From Salegentibacter echinorum (GTDB taxonomy: Bacteria; Bacteroidota; Bacteroidia; Flavobacteriales; Flavobacteriaceae), in NCBI RefSeq assembly GCF_900129445.1, contig NZ_FQVT01000004.1, positions 1 through 64,000 on the forward strand: 64,000 nt of DNA. Direction: 5' to 3'. Positions within the stretch are counted from its first letter, which is position 1. The number at the start of each line of letters is the position of its first letter. Shown here one piece after another: positions 23,070 through 38,043 of the stretch. The notes beneath the pieces were generated by a model. The model worked only from the letters and a program-made list of their open reading frames with translations. It had not been told where the DNA came from and did no database searches. The translations under genes were made by a program, and so were the position numbers.

Positions 23070-23142
23070 AATTCACTTCTCAACCCTTTCAATTCATTCA
23101 GCTATCGTCGAAGAAGACACTTTCTTTCAAGGGAGGGAGCGC
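23070..23142 (-). repeat. Degenerate half-copy of the 34690/35298 repeat family
   Basis: Read on the minus strand, this segment aligns with the left half of the repeats at 34690 and 35298: gcgctc, a ctttc/gaaag hairpin, cttcttc, cgatagc, gaa, aagggttgaga and gtgaatt, in the same order and spacing. It shows that the repeat is dispersed and not confined to the ligase operon. Confidence 0.6.
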
Positions 23143-23329
23143 TTTCTTGTTATATACATAATTTAATAAAATTAGAGGCTCCAATTCAGTCTATTCTCAT
23201 AAATTAAAAAAATTTGGTATTCAATATAATTCCGACGATAATATACTTCAAAACAGTATAACTTATTTAGTTTAATTTTAATTAAGCCGAAGTTAACAGC
23301 TCCCAGCTTCCTGAATTGAAATGATTTCA

Positions 23330-31968: not shown

Positions 31969-32997
31969 ATGAAAACACCATTACTGGTATTTGATGAAAA
32001 GGGAATTTTCTGCGAGCAGGCGGGGGTTTATCTTGATCCCTGGAAACCCGTGGATAAGGCGATTATTTCCCACGGGCACGCAGATCATTCCCGGTGGGGC
32101 CACAAGAAATATATTACACATCATACCAACGTGCCGATAATTAAACATAGGCTTGGCGATATCAAGGTTTCAGGCGTAGCCTGGGAAGAAACTTTTACAA
32201 TTAATGGGGTCACATTTTCTCTTCATCCTGCTGGTCATATAATAGGATCTTCACAAATTAGAGTGGCCTATAAAGGAGAGGTTTGGGTTTTTACCGGTGA
32301 TTATAAAGATGAGGTAGATGGTGTAGCGACTCCGTTTAAACCTGTAAAATGTCACACCTTCATTACCGAATGCACCTTTGGACTCCCTGCTTTTAAATGG
32401 CAGCCGCAAACAGAAGTGTTTTCAGAAATTAATAATTGGTGGCAACAAAATAAAGATGAAGGCACAACCTCGGTAATCTTTGGCTATTCTTTAGGCAAGG
32501 CGCAAAGGCTTTTAAAACATCTCGACACTTCTATTGGTGAGATTTTTACCCACGGTGCTATTGAGAATATGACCGATGTAATTAGGCCGTTATGCGAAAT
32601 GCCAAAAACCACGAGAATTACACGCGATACAAAAAAAGCCGATCTTAAAGGCAATATTGTAGTAGCGCCACCCAGTGCCCACGGTAGTACCTGGATAAAG
32701 AAAATGACACCATACATTACAGCTTCTGCCAGCGGTTGGATGACTTTTCGTGGGGCCAGAAGACGTAGAGCGATAGATCGTGGTTTTGTATTATCTGATC
32801 ATTGCGATTGGACGGGGCTTTTAAAATCCATAAAAGCTACGGGAGCCGAAAAGGTGATTTGCACTCACGGTTATACTGATATTTTTTCCCGTTACCTTGG
32901 GGAATTGGGTTATGATGCCCGCACCGAAGAAACTCAATATGAAGAAGAGAATGAAAGCCCCTCTCTAACCCTCCCCAAGGGGAAGGGAATTAAATAA
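31969..32997 (+). CDS. Ligase-associated DNA exonuclease (metallo-beta-lactamase fold)
   Basis: The 342-residue protein has the HxHxDH metal motif SHGHADH (34-40), later HPAGHIIGSSQI and the C-terminal LSDHCDW, as in the SNM1/beta-CASP-like nucleases. The family is known from operons with an ATP-dependent ligase, an Lhr-type helicase and the PdeM phosphoesterase, predicted to act in DNA damage repair. The last 14 residues (ESPSLTLPKGKGIK) are encoded by a GC-rich intergenic-type repeat (ctctaaccctccccaagggg), so the native C terminus has probably been replaced. The ligase starts 74 bases downstream. Confidence 0.9.
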   Translation: MKTPLLVFDEKGIFCEQAGVYLDPWKPVDKAIISHGHADHSRWGHKKYITHHTNVPIIKHRLGDIKVSGVAWEETFTINGVTFSLHPAGHIIGSSQIRVAYKGEVWVFTGDYKDEVDGVATPFKPVKCHTFITECTFGLPAFKWQPQTEVFSEINNWWQQNKDEGTTSVIFGYSLGKAQRLLKHLDTSIGEIFTHGAIENMTDVIRPLCEMPKTTRITRDTKKADLKGNIVVAPPSAHGSTWIKKMTPYITASASGWMTFRGARRRRAIDRGFVLSDHCDWTGLLKSIKATGAEKVICTHGYTDIFSRYLGELGYDARTEETQYEEENESPSLTLPKGKGIK

Positions 32998-33071
32998 AGT
33001 CCTCAAAATAATTTATGAATATGAAAAAGAAAGATGAAAATGAGGTAATTTCACCTGTCTCTGCAGGTGGT

Positions 33072-34667
33072 ATGAGAGACTTCTCCCAACTTATAAAAAC
33101 TTTAGACAGTACTAACAAAACTAACTTAAAGGTAGCTGCGTTAACCCATTATTTCAAAAATGCCCGGGATAAAGATAAAGTCTGGACTATCGCAATTTTA
33201 TCCCATCGTCGGCCGCCCAGGCCGGTAAATACCACTTTAATGCGTAGCTGGGCGTCTGAACTGGCCAATATTCCGTTGTGGTTGTTTGAAGAATCTTATC
33301 ATATCGTGGGAGATTTAGCAGAAACTATAGCCCTGGTAATCCCGGCGGCAAAAGAGGCTACAGATAAAAGTCTTCATCAATTTCTTCAGGAAATAATCGC
33401 GTTAAAAGCAAAGGGTGAAGAAGAAAAGAAAGCTTATTTACAGGAAAACTGGCTTGCTCTTAATTATTATGAGCGTTTTGTATTTACAAAATTAATCACT
33501 GGTAGTTTCCGAATAGGCGTGAGTCAAAAACTAATGACCCGGGCGTTATCAAAAGCTACCAATATCGATGAAGATATTCTGGCTTATAAAATGATGGGTA
33601 ATTGGAAACCCGATAAGATTAGTTTTTCCAAGTTGATCCTGGAAGAGCATGAGGAAGATTATTTGTCTAAACCTTATCCTTTTTACCTGGCTTACCCCAT
33701 AGATGGCGAGGTAGAAGAGCTGGGCGATGTTGCTGGCTGGAGTGCAGAACACAAATGGGATGGGATTAGATCCCAGGTGATTGTAAGAAATAACGAGTTG
33801 TTTGTGTGGAGCCGGGGCGAAGAACTGGTAACCGATAAGTATCCTGAATTTGAAAAATTTGTAGACTTGCTTCCAAACGGAACCGTTTTAGACGGTGAAA
33901 TTTTACCATTTCCAGAAGGGAAAATCGGGACTTTTAAAGACCTGCAGACCCGAATTGGCCGAAAAAATATCTCTAAAAAGCTGCTAAAAAAGACTCCGGT
34001 GATCTTAAAAGCCTACGACGTTTTGGAATGGCAGGGAGAAGATATTCGGGATAAAGCTTTTGCTGAAAGACGAAAAATCCTGGAAAAATTATTCAAAAAA
34101 GTTTCTTCGGAAGAAATCCCCTTGCATTTATCAAAGCGTATTTCCTTTGAAAGCTGGGATGAGGTAGCCAAAGAACGGGAGCGGGCGCGAGAAGAAAAAT
34201 CGGAAGGTTTGATGCTTAAAAAGCTGGGCTCGCCTTATTTAGTGGGAAGGAAAAAAGGCGATTGGTGGAAATGGAAAGTAGATCCCTTAACCATAGATGC
34301 AGTTTTAACCTATGCCATGCGTGGCCATGGACGGCGCAGTAATTTATTTACCGACTATACCTTTGGACTTTGGGATGAAGAAAAAAAGGAACTGGTCACT
34401 TTTGCAAAAGCATATTCGGGGCTTACCGATGCCGAGTTCAGAAAATTAGATAACTGGATCAAGAAAAATACCTTAGAACGTTTTGGTCCCGTGAGAAGTG
34501 TCACGCCACATCACGTTTTTGAAATTGCTTTTGAAGGAATTACCGAATCTAAACGACATAAAAGCGGTGTTGCCACCAGGTTCCCCAGGATGGTTCGCTG
34601 GCGCACCGATAAAAATATACACGAAGCAAACAATTTAGATGATTTAAAAGATTTGATTCCCGATTAA
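33072..34667 (+). CDS. ATP-dependent DNA ligase
   Basis: The enzyme (531 residues from this start) has an N-terminal helical DNA-binding domain and a nucleotidyltransferase domain with the AMP-accepting lysine in EHKWDGIR (K228). LDGEILPF is motif III, EGLMLKK motif IV and WWKWK motif V, followed by an OB domain. It seals nicks using ATP and is additional to the NAD-dependent LigA used in replication. An ATG at 33015 would add 19 residues with no family resemblance, so I prefer MRDFSQLIKTLD. It sits between the exonuclease and, after a repeat-DUF559-repeat cassette, the helicase. Confidence 0.93.
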   Translation: MRDFSQLIKTLDSTNKTNLKVAALTHYFKNARDKDKVWTIAILSHRRPPRPVNTTLMRSWASELANIPLWLFEESYHIVGDLAETIALVIPAAKEATDKSLHQFLQEIIALKAKGEEEKKAYLQENWLALNYYERFVFTKLITGSFRIGVSQKLMTRALSKATNIDEDILAYKMMGNWKPDKISFSKLILEEHEEDYLSKPYPFYLAYPIDGEVEELGDVAGWSAEHKWDGIRSQVIVRNNELFVWSRGEELVTDKYPEFEKFVDLLPNGTVLDGEILPFPEGKIGTFKDLQTRIGRKNISKKLLKKTPVILKAYDVLEWQGEDIRDKAFAERRKILEKLFKKVSSEEIPLHLSKRISFESWDEVAKERERAREEKSEGLMLKKLGSPYLVGRKKGDWWKWKVDPLTIDAVLTYAMRGHGRRSNLFTDYTFGLWDEEKKELVTFAKAYSGLTDAEFRKLDNWIKKNTLERFGPVRSVTPHHVFEIAFEGITESKRHKSGVATRFPRMVRWRTDKNIHEANNLDDLKDLIPD

Positions 34668-34689: not shown

Positions 34690-34873
34690 TAAAGGTGATC
34701 AGCAAGCGCTCTTTCCCTTTAAAGAAAGGTGGCTTCTTCTGTGATAGCGGAAGGAGTCGGAAGGGTTGAGAGGTGAAATTGTATTTAAATTTTGAAAAAC
34801 CACCCCGCCCTATCGGGCACCCCTCCTTAAAAAGTAGGGGAGCGGGCCTCTTTGGTTGCTAAGTGGAATTTAT
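34690..34873 (+). repeat. GC-rich hairpin repeat, copy A (upstream of DUF559)
   Basis: A segment of about 184 bases matching copy B at 35298-35480. The central 118 bases (34726-34844) differ at one position. It contains a ctttccctttaaagaaagg hairpin, gatagcggaaggagtcgg, aagggttgagaggtg and ccgccctatcgggcacccct. The two halves are themselves imperfect inverted relatives, both beginning CGCTCC when read inward. It is non-coding. Confidence 0.85.
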
Positions 34874-34899
34874 GAGAAAAGCTTAAAAACTTAATTGAA

Positions 34900-35274
34900 A
34901 TGTGGATTTTGAAAAAAGCAAATCATAATAAAAAATATCTTGAGTCGTATCGTAAAACGCTAAGAGAAAATCTAACTCCGGCAGAAGCTTTTTTATGGAA
35001 ACAGTTGCAACACCGAAAATTTGAAGGTAGAAAATTTAGAAGACAACATAGTATTGAAAATTTCATAGTCGATTTTTACTGTGCTAAAGAGCAATTAATT
35101 ATAGAACTGGATGGAGATATCCATAATAATCCTTTAGCTGAAGAAAGGGATAAAAAACGAACAGAGAAATTGGAAGCTTTAGGTTTTAAGGTATTACATT
35201 TTGAGAATAAAATGGTGTTTGATTTTTTGCCATCAGTTTTAAAGGAAATTGCAGATAATTTTAAAAAGCAATAA
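34900..35274 (+). CDS. DUF559 endonuclease-like protein
   Basis: The 124-residue protein belongs to DUF559, a Vsr/restriction-endonuclease-like fold. The segment NFIVDFYC (D58), then LIIELDGDIH (E69, D71, H75), gives the likely metal-dependent nuclease site, with RREFRRQH-like basic residues before it (KFEGRKFRRQHSI). The exact activity of the family is not established. It is not a normal member of the ligase-exonuclease-helicase operon and is flanked on both sides by nearly identical 180-bp repeats, which suggests that it arrived with them. Similar small DUF559 genes are scattered in Bacteroidota genomes. Confidence 0.88.
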   Translation: MWILKKANHNKKYLESYRKTLRENLTPAEAFLWKQLQHRKFEGRKFRRQHSIENFIVDFYCAKEQLIIELDGDIHNNPLAEERDKKRTEKLEALGFKVLHFENKMVFDFLPSVLKEIADNFKKQ

Positions 35275-35297
35275 AATATTGGCTTTGTTAAGTTACG

Positions 35298-35480
35298 AAT
35301 GATATTAGCAAACGCTCCTTCCCTTTGAAGGGAAGGTGGCTTCTTCTGCGATAGCGGAAGGAGTCGGAAGGGTTGAGAGGTGAAATTGTATTTAAATTTT
35401 GAAAAACCACCCCGCCCTATCGGGCACCCCTCCTTAAAAAGTAGGGGAGCGAGCTTGTTCAGTTAGGTAGCTAAATTTAA
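35298..35480 (+). repeat. GC-rich hairpin repeat, copy B (downstream of DUF559)
   Basis: Second copy of the repeat at 34690, offset by 607 bases. Here the first hairpin is perfect: CCTTCCCTT (35317-35325) with AAGGGAAGG (35328-35336). GCCC-TATC-GGGC in the right part also pairs. The unit repeat plus DUF559 appears once as a full unit, followed by this extra repeat. Confidence 0.85.
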
Positions 35481-35486
35481 GTAGCT

Positions 35487-35535
35487 CCTTCCCTTTTTTT
35501 AAGGGAAGGTAGCATATTCTGTTTTTACAGAATAT
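35487..35535 (+). repeat. Double hairpin upstream of the helicase, related to the repeats
   Basis: CCTTCCCTT (35487-35495) pairs with AAGGGAAGG (35501-35509), directly followed by ATATTCTG (35514-35521) pairing with CAGAATAT (35528-35535). Both are perfect. The first hairpin is the same as in copy B, and tgagggaagggtc follows as in the repeats, so this is a third, partial family member 28 bases before the helicase start. Confidence 0.7.
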
Positions 35536-35562
35536 GAGGGAAGGGTCAAAAAGGACACAATC

Positions 35563-38043
35563 ATGAACAAAAAAAAACTCATCAACATAGCAGAAACATG
35601 GTTTTCCAATCAGGGGTGGAAGGCTTTTGCTTTTCAAAAACAAACCTGGGATGCTTTTCTTAAAGGTAAAAACGGACTTTTAAATGCGCCCACGGGAAGC
35701 GGAAAAACTTATGCGCTCTGGATTCCTATTGTACTGGCTTATCTTAAACAAAACCCAAATTATAAAACTAAACATAGAAAAGGCTTAAAAGCAATTTGGA
35801 TTACGCCGCTTCGGGCACTTTCAGTAGAAATTGAACAGGCTGCGCAGCGTTTTGCTAACGAAATTGACAGCGGACTAAGCGTGGGAATTCGAACCGGCGA
35901 TACACCACAAAAAATTAGGGCTGCTCAAAAAAAATCAATGCCCGATCTATTGATAACCACTCCCGAAAGTTTGCAGTTGTTATTAGCTTCAAAAGATTAT
36001 GATAAAACTTTTAAAAATCTGCAAGCGGTAGTGGTAGATGAATGGCACGAATTGCTGGGCACTAAACGCGGGGTGCAAATGGAACTGGCGCTTTCGCGTT
36101 TAAAAACAGTTTCAGGAGAATTGCGAATTTGGGGAATCTCAGCGACGATTGGAAATTTGGAGCAGGCACGGGAAGTATTGCTTGGCCCAAATTCCGAAGC
36201 ATTTGAAAATTCAGTATTAATAAAAGCCAGGCTAAAAAAGAAAATCAAGGTGCAATCTATTATTCCTAAAAAAATGGAACGTTTTCCCTGGCGGGGGCAC
36301 CTTGGTTTACACTTGCTGGATGAGGTAGTGCCAATTATCAAAAATTCTAAAACAACGCTGTTGTTTACCAATACCCGTTCACAATGTGAATTGTGGTTCC
36401 AGAAATTAATGTCGAAATATCCCGAATTTGCTGGAGAGGTAGCTATGCATCACGGGAGTATTAACAAAGAAACCCGGCTGTGGGTGGAGCAGGCCATTAG
36501 GAACGAAACTTTAAAAGCCGTGGTATGTACTTCCAGCCTTGATTTGGGCGTTGATTTTGCGCCGGTAGAAACCATTATTCAAATTGGTGGCCCCAAAGGG
36601 GTTGCGCGGTTTATGCAACGTGCCGGGAGAAGTGGTCACCAACCGGGTGGGGAAAGTGTGATCTATTTTTTGCCTACCCACGCGATAGAACTCATAGAAG
36701 CTTCAGCCTTGCAAAAAGCGGTGAAAAAACAGGCGGTTGAAGATCGAATTCCATATTTGCTGAGTTTTGATGTCCTGGTGCAATATTTAACGACCCTGGC
36801 GGTGTCCAACGGATTTTTTCCGAATGATATCTGGCCCGAGGTAAAAGCTACATTTTGTTTTCAAACAATAACTAAAGAACAATGGCGTTGGTTGCTTAAT
36901 TTTGTCACGAAAGGTAGCCAGAGCTTACAGGCTTACGATGAATATAAAAAAATTGAGATTGAAGAAGATGGCCGTTTTAAGGTAAATAACCGCGGGGTTG
37001 CTATGCGACATCGTTTGCAAATTGGCACTATTGTGAGCGATGCGATGTTGAGTGTAAAATATATGAAGGGTGGTTATATAGGTACTATTGAAGAATGGTT
37101 TGTTTCCAAATTGAAACCGGGGGATGTATTTACTTTTGCCGGCCGAAATTTAGAACTCGTTCATATTAAAAGTATGCAGGTGTTGGTGCGTAGATCTAAA
37201 AAAAAGACAGCCAAAGTTCCCAGCTGGATGGGCGGCAGAATGGCGTTTTCGGCACAAATGAGTGAATTGTTGAGAGAAGAAATGTATGCGGCTTCAGCTT
37301 CTTCGACTGTCACCTCGAACGCAGCTGGGAAATCAGAGGAATTGAAAGCTTTGCGGCCAATTTTAGATAGACAGTTGAAGGAATCTATTGTTCCGAAGCA
37401 AGACGAGTTTTTAATTGAAACTTTTAAAACCAGGGAAGGATATCACGCTATTTTTTATCCTTTTGAGGGTCGTTTTGTACACGAAGCCCTGGGAAGTTTG
37501 CTGGCTTATCGTATTAGTTTACTATCACCCATCACTTTTTCCATCGCTTTTAATGATTATGGTTTCGAGTTGCTTTCAGACCAGGAAATTGATATGCAAC
37601 AGGTGTTGGACAATAATCTTTTTTCTGAAGCATATTTAATGGACGATCTTTACAAAAGTTTGAACGCTACCGAAATGGCACGAAGAAAATTTAGAGATAT
37701 AGCGGTAATTGCCGGCATGGTTTTTACCGGTTATCCCAATAAAATGATTAAAAGTAAGCATCTACAAAGCAGTTCGCAGTTGTTATTTAGTGTTTTTAGG
37801 GATTATGAAGCCGATAATTTATTATACCTGCAATCTTTTCGAGAGACCTTTGAGCATCAATTGGAAGAAGGCCGTTTAAGACTAGCCTTAGATCGAATTT
37901 CCGGGCAAAAAATAGTTTGGAAAAACTGCGAAAAACCCACGCCGTTTTCTTTTCCTATTATTACCGATAGGTTGCGGGAAAAATTGTCTTCAGAAAAAGT
38001 GGAAGATCGTATAAGAAAAATGCTAAAGAGTTTGGAGCAATAA
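35563..38043 (+). CDS. Ligase-associated DEXH-box helicase (Lhr type)
   Basis: The 826-residue protein is an SF2 helicase with Walker A APTGSGKT (42-49), the DEWH box (159-162), SATIGN (motif III) and motif VI QRAGRSGHQPGG. It then has the winged-helix and Lhr C-terminal domains. It belongs to the Lhr-core group found with ATP-dependent ligase, MBL exonuclease and PdeM in a predicted DNA-damage operon. Here it is separated from the ligase by 896 bases of repeats and a DUF559 gene. No pdeM follows. Instead, a CAGT word array begins just after the stop. Confidence 0.94.
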   Translation: MNKKKLINIAETWFSNQGWKAFAFQKQTWDAFLKGKNGLLNAPTGSGKTYALWIPIVLAYLKQNPNYKTKHRKGLKAIWITPLRALSVEIEQAAQRFANEIDSGLSVGIRTGDTPQKIRAAQKKSMPDLLITTPESLQLLLASKDYDKTFKNLQAVVVDEWHELLGTKRGVQMELALSRLKTVSGELRIWGISATIGNLEQAREVLLGPNSEAFENSVLIKARLKKKIKVQSIIPKKMERFPWRGHLGLHLLDEVVPIIKNSKTTLLFTNTRSQCELWFQKLMSKYPEFAGEVAMHHGSINKETRLWVEQAIRNETLKAVVCTSSLDLGVDFAPVETIIQIGGPKGVARFMQRAGRSGHQPGGESVIYFLPTHAIELIEASALQKAVKKQAVEDRIPYLLSFDVLVQYLTTLAVSNGFFPNDIWPEVKATFCFQTITKEQWRWLLNFVTKGSQSLQAYDEYKKIEIEEDGRFKVNNRGVAMRHRLQIGTIVSDAMLSVKYMKGGYIGTIEEWFVSKLKPGDVFTFAGRNLELVHIKSMQVLVRRSKKKTAKVPSWMGGRMAFSAQMSELLREEMYAASASSTVTSNAAGKSEELKALRPILDRQLKESIVPKQDEFLIETFKTREGYHAIFYPFEGRFVHEALGSLLAYRISLLSPITFSIAFNDYGFELLSDQEIDMQQVLDNNLFSEAYLMDDLYKSLNATEMARRKFRDIAVIAGMVFTGYPNKMIKSKHLQSSSQLLFSVFRDYEADNLLYLQSFRETFEHQLEEGRLRLALDRISGQKIVWKNCEKPTPFSFPIITDRLREKLSSEKVEDRIRKMLKSLEQ

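Follow-up and report, generated by a model that had tools for sequence, protein, structure and literature searches.

The question raised by this locus is why a small DUF559 gene boxed by hairpin repeats lies inside a DNA-repair operon, and whether gene and repeats belong together. Profile search of the window (the whole stretch of DNA that was analysed, 64,000 nucleotides) identified the host operon as the 'ligase-associated DNA damage response' set, i.e. the exonuclease (31969..32997; TIGR04122, 463.5 bits, above cut-off), the ATP-dependent DNA ligase (33015..34667; TIGR04120, 628.8 bits; PF01068/PF04675/PF04679) and the DEXH-box (Lhr-like) helicase (35563..38043; TIGR04121, 1140.6 bits), all on the + strand. 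The junction between the ligase and the helicase is occupied, in this order, by repeat A, a standalone DUF559 nuclease gene (34900..35274, +; 124 aa; PF04480, E 3.9e-32), repeat B and a partial third repeat. This arrangement, with A and B placed around DUF559 and splitting the ligase from the helicase, was described in the original prediction and its coordinates held on re-reading, as did the single difference claimed between A and B over their core (the 119 nt at 34726-34844 differ only at 34742). A and B had also been taken for two nearly identical 180-bp repeats; they are indeed alike (162 nt at 89%), but the natural unit is not a 180-bp block. No family reached the gathering threshold in an Rfam scan of the window. 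A defence-system reading of the locus was rejected, PADLOC giving only weak matches (homing endonuclease, 3e-4; type II enzyme, 6e-3; DpdF, 7e-3).

The natural unit is approximately 46-60 bp long and consists of a C-rich tail and one or two hairpins. Repeat A and repeat B each form an L-R doublet, i.e. two units built on one plan in opposite orientation, so that the junction reads L-R, DUF559, L-R, L. The L unit has the order GCTCCTTCCCTT-loop-AAGGGAAGGTGG-variable stem-GACGGAAGGGTT, and the R unit the reverse order of tail, small stem and large stem (AACCACCCCG-short stem-CACCCCTCCTT-loop-AGTAGGGGAGC); the majority sequence of 34 aligned units is GCTCC..AAGGG(A)AGGTGG..stem..GACGGAAGGGT. A covariance model for L, derived from 34 units (R1), located the L units of repeat A (34708..34766; E 2.0e-12, also supported by alignment) and repeat B (35314..35373; E 5.2e-15) as well as the third repeat, which is a lone L unit (35484..35546; E 6.5e-14). 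The R units of A (34798..34843, with the tail AACCACCCC) and B (35405..35450) were read from the sequence; they are identical, without a single mismatch, and opposite in orientation to L. All five units are given on the + strand. Elsewhere in the window, positions 23072-23147 (- strand) hold a partial, decayed copy of the L unit.

The two perfect hairpins predicted for the third repeat were borne out by its folding (z -7.1; none of 200 shuffles folded equally well). Repeat B also folded well (z -3.0; 1/200 shuffles as good), whereas repeat A alone did not (z -0.6; 47/200), because its first stem (in the L unit) contains mismatches. RNAalifold predicted 15 stem pairs, with compensatory changes in 11 of them. 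The tail is approximately a copy of the 3' arm of the stem and co-varies with it: after 19 of 116 units whose tail fitted no listed type had been set aside, tail and arm types matched in 94 of 97 units, compared with at most 55 in shuffles. Thus, one word occurs three times per unit, as an inverted pair and as the tail. We infer, without binding data, that the enzyme recognises this word, as duplex sites or through an alternative pairing between tail and arm in single strands.

The repeat is not confined to this locus but dispersed. When the window's own genome (3.96 Mb) was searched at the DNA level (E up to 1e-3), 23 matches were obtained, which contained the full cassette once and otherwise parts of the repeat, and R1 detected 22 copies, three of them within the cassette. 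Units are scattered between genes, singly and as inverted doublets; among 17 dispersed copies read with their flanks, eight were R-spacer-L doublets by eye and the others had no clear R, and the best copies are up to 96% identical to the L unit of repeat B. The genome has three DUF559 matches, two of which lie in reading frames of >1,000 aa, leaving one standalone enzyme per about twenty repeats. One dispersed doublet (C29:308553) lies within about 480 bp of sequence, at a site where five relatives have 65-75 bp and no doublet. Several of the 17 copies have further flanking sequence in common. Near-identical L units were also present in common flanks at 17 of 18 sites read in G401 (L271-L288), mostly with an R unit after them; this genome has one standalone DUF559, and the repeat has apparently spread in it recently. 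A tandem array of nine units with a spacing of about 160 bp was observed in G335 (C8:488309-489667, L319), the sole DUF559 gene of which is broken (C15, L289).

The association of gene and repeat was analysed in Flavobacteriaceae using the best 80 of 119 matches to this one protein, four of which lacked 300-bp flanks and were dropped. A hairpin was defined as a perfect stem, 8 bp or longer, within 300 bp of the gene. Of the resulting 76 loci, 60 had such a stem upstream, 67 downstream, 53 on both sides and 2 on neither side; imperfect units were visible by eye in these two. Only 17 of 454 other ORFs from the same loci had stems on both sides (vs 53/76; Fisher, 1.5e-39). Strong direct similarity between the two flanks was observed for 51 of the 76 DUF559 genes, again from the best 80 of 119, and for 6 of the 454 other ORFs (4e-45). 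Hairpins or flank repeats are therefore far more common beside standalone DUF559 than beside other genes, and a lack of association, which would have refuted the predicted partnership, was not observed. An origin of the repeats by chance was ruled out by the shuffles, the control genes and the covariation. What nevertheless counts against the explanation proposed below is that the sample consists of the best 80 of 119 matches to a single protein.

A draw of 90 genomes from the family contained 29 standalone loci in 27 genomes, two of them without full flanks; flank repeats were present at 17 of the other 27 loci and a hairpin or a flank repeat at 25, without control genes in this case. Some of these loci are not recognized by R1, and 6 of the 9 R1-negative loci with full flanks still carry flank repeats in different letters. 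Several of the nine R1-negative loci follow the tail-plus-stem plan, also in other letters. Phylum-wide, 39 of 40 standalone loci were usable (one lay at a contig edge and was dropped), with flank repeats at 24 and hairpins on both sides at 22. In contrast, 20 fused DUF559 domains (reading frames >1,000 aa) showed no flank repeats and hairpins on both sides only once. The difference (24/39 vs 0/20) indicates that the association belongs to the free-standing gene, and the fused domains were excluded from the phenomenon.

Profile models of the L and R units placed 224 of 301 units within about 400 bp of DUF559, a space that makes up 6.9% of the 990 kb searched, although this figure is biased upward because the models were seeded with units beside DUF559. 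Counted by locus (n=81), units occurred upstream in 62, downstream in 68 and on both sides in 53. Of the 53 loci resolved among these 81, 37 had the nearest units across the gene in inverted and 16 in direct orientation (p 0.005); the window itself was scored as direct because its R units were missed by the models. A generic orientation caller gave 9 inverted and 17 direct loci in Flavobacteriaceae, where it misses R units, 13 inverted of 18 resolved among 40 phylum loci, and 7 inverted of 7 resolved among 14 plasmid loci.

Repeat and gene also occur together across genomes. R1 matched in 20 of the 90 genomes (representing 89 genera), and an intact standalone DUF559 was present in 18 of these 20, compared with 8 of the 70 repeat-less genomes (Fisher, 6e-11). 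The two remaining repeat-bearing genomes have a DUF559 gene in two pieces (G335) or with an internal stop (G358). Standalone DUF559 occurs in 9 of the 70 R1-negative genomes, in one of them (G362) with an internal stop, and counting in the single-stop genes of G358 and G362 gives 8e-12. Co-occurrence is looser within the window's genus, where 8 of 11 repeat-bearing genomes have an intact standalone gene, one a broken gene and two none. Among 15 genomes of this genus, those with an intact standalone gene had 22, 20, 20, 16, 13, 12, 6 and 1 repeats, and those without one had 8 (broken gene), 7, 7, 0, 0, 0 and 0 (Mann-Whitney, p 0.011 without and 0.006 with G007, which is 61% complete and has 0 repeats). 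The broken gene is that of G009, and the two genomes with 7 repeats each and no standalone DUF559 are G004 and G008; their repeats may be relics left after loss of the enzyme or evidence against strict dependence. G003 carries two standalone DUF559 genes and only 1 R1 match.

The type of repeat follows the lineage of the enzyme. On a DUF559 tree of 77 proteins (61 labelled by the stem type of the adjacent unit and 16 unlabelled; 4 of 81 with internal stops were left off), stem type changes 6 times, compared with at least 17 changes in 200 shuffles. When shuffling was confined to the four mixed-type genera, with labels exchanged inside each genus, 6 or fewer changes were obtained in 3 of 500 trials. 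Salegentibacter and Aquimarina each have DUF559 genes in separate clades, with differing repeat types. This tree rests on few columns, and many of its forks are unresolved. Judged from sequence alone, DUF559 lineage is a predictor of repeat type within genera.

The DUF559 domain spans residues 14-119 of the 124-aa protein, which was modelled with AlphaFold2 (pLDDT 87, pTM 0.79). The nearest solved structure is 3hrl, a gonococcal putative endonuclease-like protein (Z 15.6), followed by the homing endonuclease I-Bth0305I (PDB 3r3p; Z 10.9), the catalytic domain of which is also the nearest functionally characterised profile relative among solved structures (E 8.5e-4). Vsr gave Z 9.6 and 8.8, a level also reached by three mitoribosomal proteins (Z 8.8-9.7). 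These matches, together with PF04480, agree with the restriction-like fold that had been proposed in place of a tyrosine transposase. As to the nuclease residues said to be kept (D58, E69 and D71), D58 and E69, as well as H75, are invariant in 29 aligned sequences, that of the window included, while D71 is nearly so (Asn in L032); other invariant residues include R18, R22, E29, W33, Q49, G72, D84, R87, E102 and N103. On the model, the protein has the predicted fold of a Vsr/EDxHD, PD-(D/E)XK-type nuclease with conserved catalytic-type residues, from which cutting is inferred.

Given this fold, the protein could be a Vsr-like housekeeping nuclease of mismatch repair, with the hairpins being terminators or mRNA-stability elements of a kind that any intergenic gene may gain. 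The accessible part of one report (PMC12907096) describes a Caulobacter DUF559 protein, VsrA, as responsible for an SOS response in a cytosine methyltransferase mutant, i.e. without the methyltransferase. This effect is compatible with an active nuclease, and the source paper itself reads it as mismatch repair. We nevertheless consider a housekeeping role improbable, as other genes in the same loci are rarely boxed and fused DUF559 domains are not, repeat type tracks DUF559 lineage, repeats and gene co-occur, and the adjacent genes here encode the ligase and the helicase and no methyltransferase. Linkage is, however, not essential, since the same paper, as far as available, reports an unlinked pair of VsrA and methyltransferase.

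Fixation of the cassette at this locus in all relatives would have spoken against a mobile cassette, and it was not observed: of the 13 relatives with a readable ligase/helicase junction, eight (G002, G003, G004, G006, G008, G009, G013 and G015) have neither L/R units nor the gene, with junctions of 7 to about 54 bp, one has a lone doublet and four have the cassette. The junctions of G002 and G004 end in letters like those of the L tail, perhaps a scar. A different palindrome, of the CTCACAGGTTTTCAAAACCTGTGAG type, was seen at the junction in G009, G008 and G013 (L115, L121 and L120), and G013 has three tandem DUF559 genes about 420 bp apart at another site (C115:37420-38574). The lone doublet, in G012, is a 140-bp R-L doublet without a gene, and it matches the remnant expected from recombination between flanking doublets. 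G014, G011, G005 and G021 have R-L-DUF559-R-L; G005 additionally has tandem doublets, which include fragments from the start of the helicase gene and from the end of DUF559. The ligase/helicase site is common to 17 of 81 loci from several genera, which suggests that the cassette is passed on mostly at a fixed site; the 81 loci have 43 distinct neighbour pairs and 26 context groups. The cassette thus appears to be mostly stable by descent and to move occasionally. No target-site duplication was readable in the empty/occupied pairs, the flanks of which are about 20% diverged.

Such empty and occupied sites might also be produced by a homing-type element, in which DUF559 cuts an intergenic site where it is absent, perhaps a lone doublet, and is copied in by repair; the repeats would then be recognition sites or scars and would not be spread by DUF559. 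The relationship to the catalytic domain of I-Bth0305I (E 8.5e-4; Z 10.9) is in keeping with this, as is the lone R-L doublet of G012, placed exactly where G011, G014 and G005 have R-L-DUF559-R-L, and the portion of PMC9403480 available to us puts a DUF559 gene in the EDxHD homing family. Left unexplained are the about 20 dispersed copies, nearly all away from the sole standalone DUF559, and the inverted doublets found elsewhere. Furthermore, I-Bth0305I is long and multi-domain according to the accessible part of PMC3943268, compared with 124 residues here. We therefore regard homing as unlikely, though it remains a possibility to be taken seriously.

A search beyond Bacteroidota (tblastn) found DUF559 on 42 plasmid records, 14 of which were fetched, picked for organism spread before their flanks were seen. 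Three of these loci lie in the hpa operon, and one (Photobacterium, L216) is unannotated and its end points were guessed. Inverted copies flanked DUF559 at 10 of the 14 loci, compared with 1 of the 44 CDS other than DUF559 that these loci contain (Fisher, 2e-7); by phylum, they were found in Deinococcota (4/4), Pseudomonadota (5/6) and Cyanobacteriota (1/4, with units visible by eye at two more loci). Among the 14, the single Photobacterium locus had none (0/1). As in the window, the gene may lie inside operons: suf, between sufB and sufC, in Sphingomonas, and both paa and hpa in Deinococcus, where the neighbours within hpa differ. An insertion of 734 bp in Sinorhizobium sp. C101, with the plan doublet-DUF559-doublet as in Bacteroidota, is absent from Shinella, and the pieces of the two genomes at the cassette site overlap by 7 bp. 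The flanking unit has 83 matches on the S. meliloti Ak57 replicon, several of them in inverted pairs about 80 bp apart, although one palindrome can count twice, once per strand. In A. lipoferum, a Deinococcus unit gave 21 matches, with similar inverted pairs, while on four Deinococcus plasmids the unit beside one DUF559 gene had 3, 1, 4 and 0 matches, i.e. dispersal was not seen there. The recurrence of the pairing of this enzyme family with hairpin repeats in distant bacteria suggests that the enzyme spreads or tends the repeats.

The same distribution bears on the idea that DUF559 is a mere passenger, trapped between two MITE-like doublets that are moved by an unseen transposase, and spread as cargo. 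It is true that some copies lie in longer elements with further common flanks (in the window's own genome and in G401), as MITEs do. Variation would be expected of cargo, but in four phyla it is DUF559 that is boxed, by repeats of different sequence, and enzyme lineage and repeat type go together (other boxed families were not surveyed, except GIY-YIG). The passenger role is, in our opinion, very doubtful.

We favour, with a probability of roughly 65%, the reading that this is a REP-like system of which the locus is the copy that carries the enzyme, with DUF559 as the dedicated partner of the repeat. It is supported directly by the anatomy of the units, their association and co-occurrence with the gene, the match of lineage and type, covariation, the presence/absence pattern, the fold and the catalytic-type residues, while binding, cutting and copying are inferred. 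Most likely, the DUF559 protein would recognise the word common to the tail and the stem arm, and it may nick or cut at or beside this word. Cell repair or recombination would then copy doublets to new intergenic sites, the copying and its direction being inferences. The whole doublet-DUF559-doublet cassette might now and then be copied likewise, and recombination between the flanking doublets would delete the gene and leave a lone doublet.

REP-like repeats are common in bacteria, and how families that lack a RAYT spread is an open question. With a second partnership of enzyme and repeat, based on a nuclease of metal-dependent type rather than a tyrosine transposase and present in four phyla, DUF559 would acquire a function, a large group of hairpin repeats would be accounted for, and this lifestyle would be shown to have arisen more than once. 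The open-licence literature searched, mostly represented by titles and abstract openings, contained no link of DUF559/COG2852 to dispersed repeats; a prior description elsewhere is possible.

Among known systems, I-Bth0305I (PDB 3r3p; PMC3943268, accessible in part) has a homologous EDxHD/Vsr-type catalytic domain. The DUF559 locus differs in that no intron or intein was seen, the protein has a single domain and the gene is boxed by hairpin repeats. The extended DNA-binding regions of EDxHD homing endonucleases are absent from a protein of 124 aa whose domain spans residues 14-119. Empty junction alleles do exist among relatives. Vsr endonuclease and Caulobacter VsrA (PMC12907096, partly available) are alike in fold, VsrA being itself a DUF559 protein, and differ in that no cytosine methyltransferase is adjacent at the window locus and repeats box the gene.

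CGTC-tagged REPs, which according to the available portion of PMC3733652 (2013) apparently lack a dedicated transposase, resemble the present repeats in being palindromic and dispersed as inverted dimers, but have another sequence, and one Azospirillum locus boxes a GIY-YIG nuclease instead. This locus (A. lipoferum plasmid AZO_p3, L320, 1107-1400) has a GIY-YIG gene boxed by inverted doublets of the CGTC palindrome at the sufB-sufC junction, which is also the site of the DUF559 cassette of Sphingomonas (L219). Strong direct flank repeats were observed at 13 of 25 usable loci out of 30 with standalone GIY-YIG genes in Flavobacteriaceae (L324-L353), without control genes; when five GIY-YIG loci were printed, some had TGTC/CGTC-headed imperfect palindromes and one did not. 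The GIY-YIG nuclease could be the missing partner of the CGTC repeats. Tentatively, and with somewhat more doubt than belief, we propose that small nucleases with unrelated folds each partner repeats of a palindromic superfamily: RAYT with GTAG (known), DUF559 with C-rich units (four phyla) and GIY-YIG with CGTC/TGTC (glimpsed). If this is true, tiny domesticated nucleases would maintain and spread much of the 'orphan' hairpin DNA of bacteria, and there would be a candidate for the partner that the CGTC repeats lack.

REPINs (PMC3116915) are similar in that what spreads seems to be the dispersed inverted doublet, and differ in partner enzyme and in repeat sequence, both of which are unrelated. 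The closest likeness is to the REP/RAYT system, and the original comparison with it is apt in anatomy. As described in the part of Nunvar 2010 (PMC2817692) available to us, REP/RAYT loci share a gene between two inverted repeats, many dispersed copies, inverted doublets, compensatory stem changes and an enzyme lineage tied to repeat type, and many dispersed copies are found here in the window's own genome (22) and the S. meliloti replicon (83 matches). Inverted flanking is claimed to be 'always' the case for RAYTs, whereas DUF559 loci show only a tendency (37 inverted, 16 direct). The RAYT enzyme is an IS200/IS605-type tyrosine transposase and DUF559 a Vsr-fold nuclease, so the enzyme criterion is not met, and RAYT REPs have a GTAG (or GTRG) head, which is absent from the majority sequence of 34 units, where the tail instead repeats the stem arm. 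With another enzyme fold and no GTAG head, the DUF559/repeat system is not a RAYT system; with binding, cutting and mobilisation inferred, it is best read as a REP-partner system with an unrelated nuclease.
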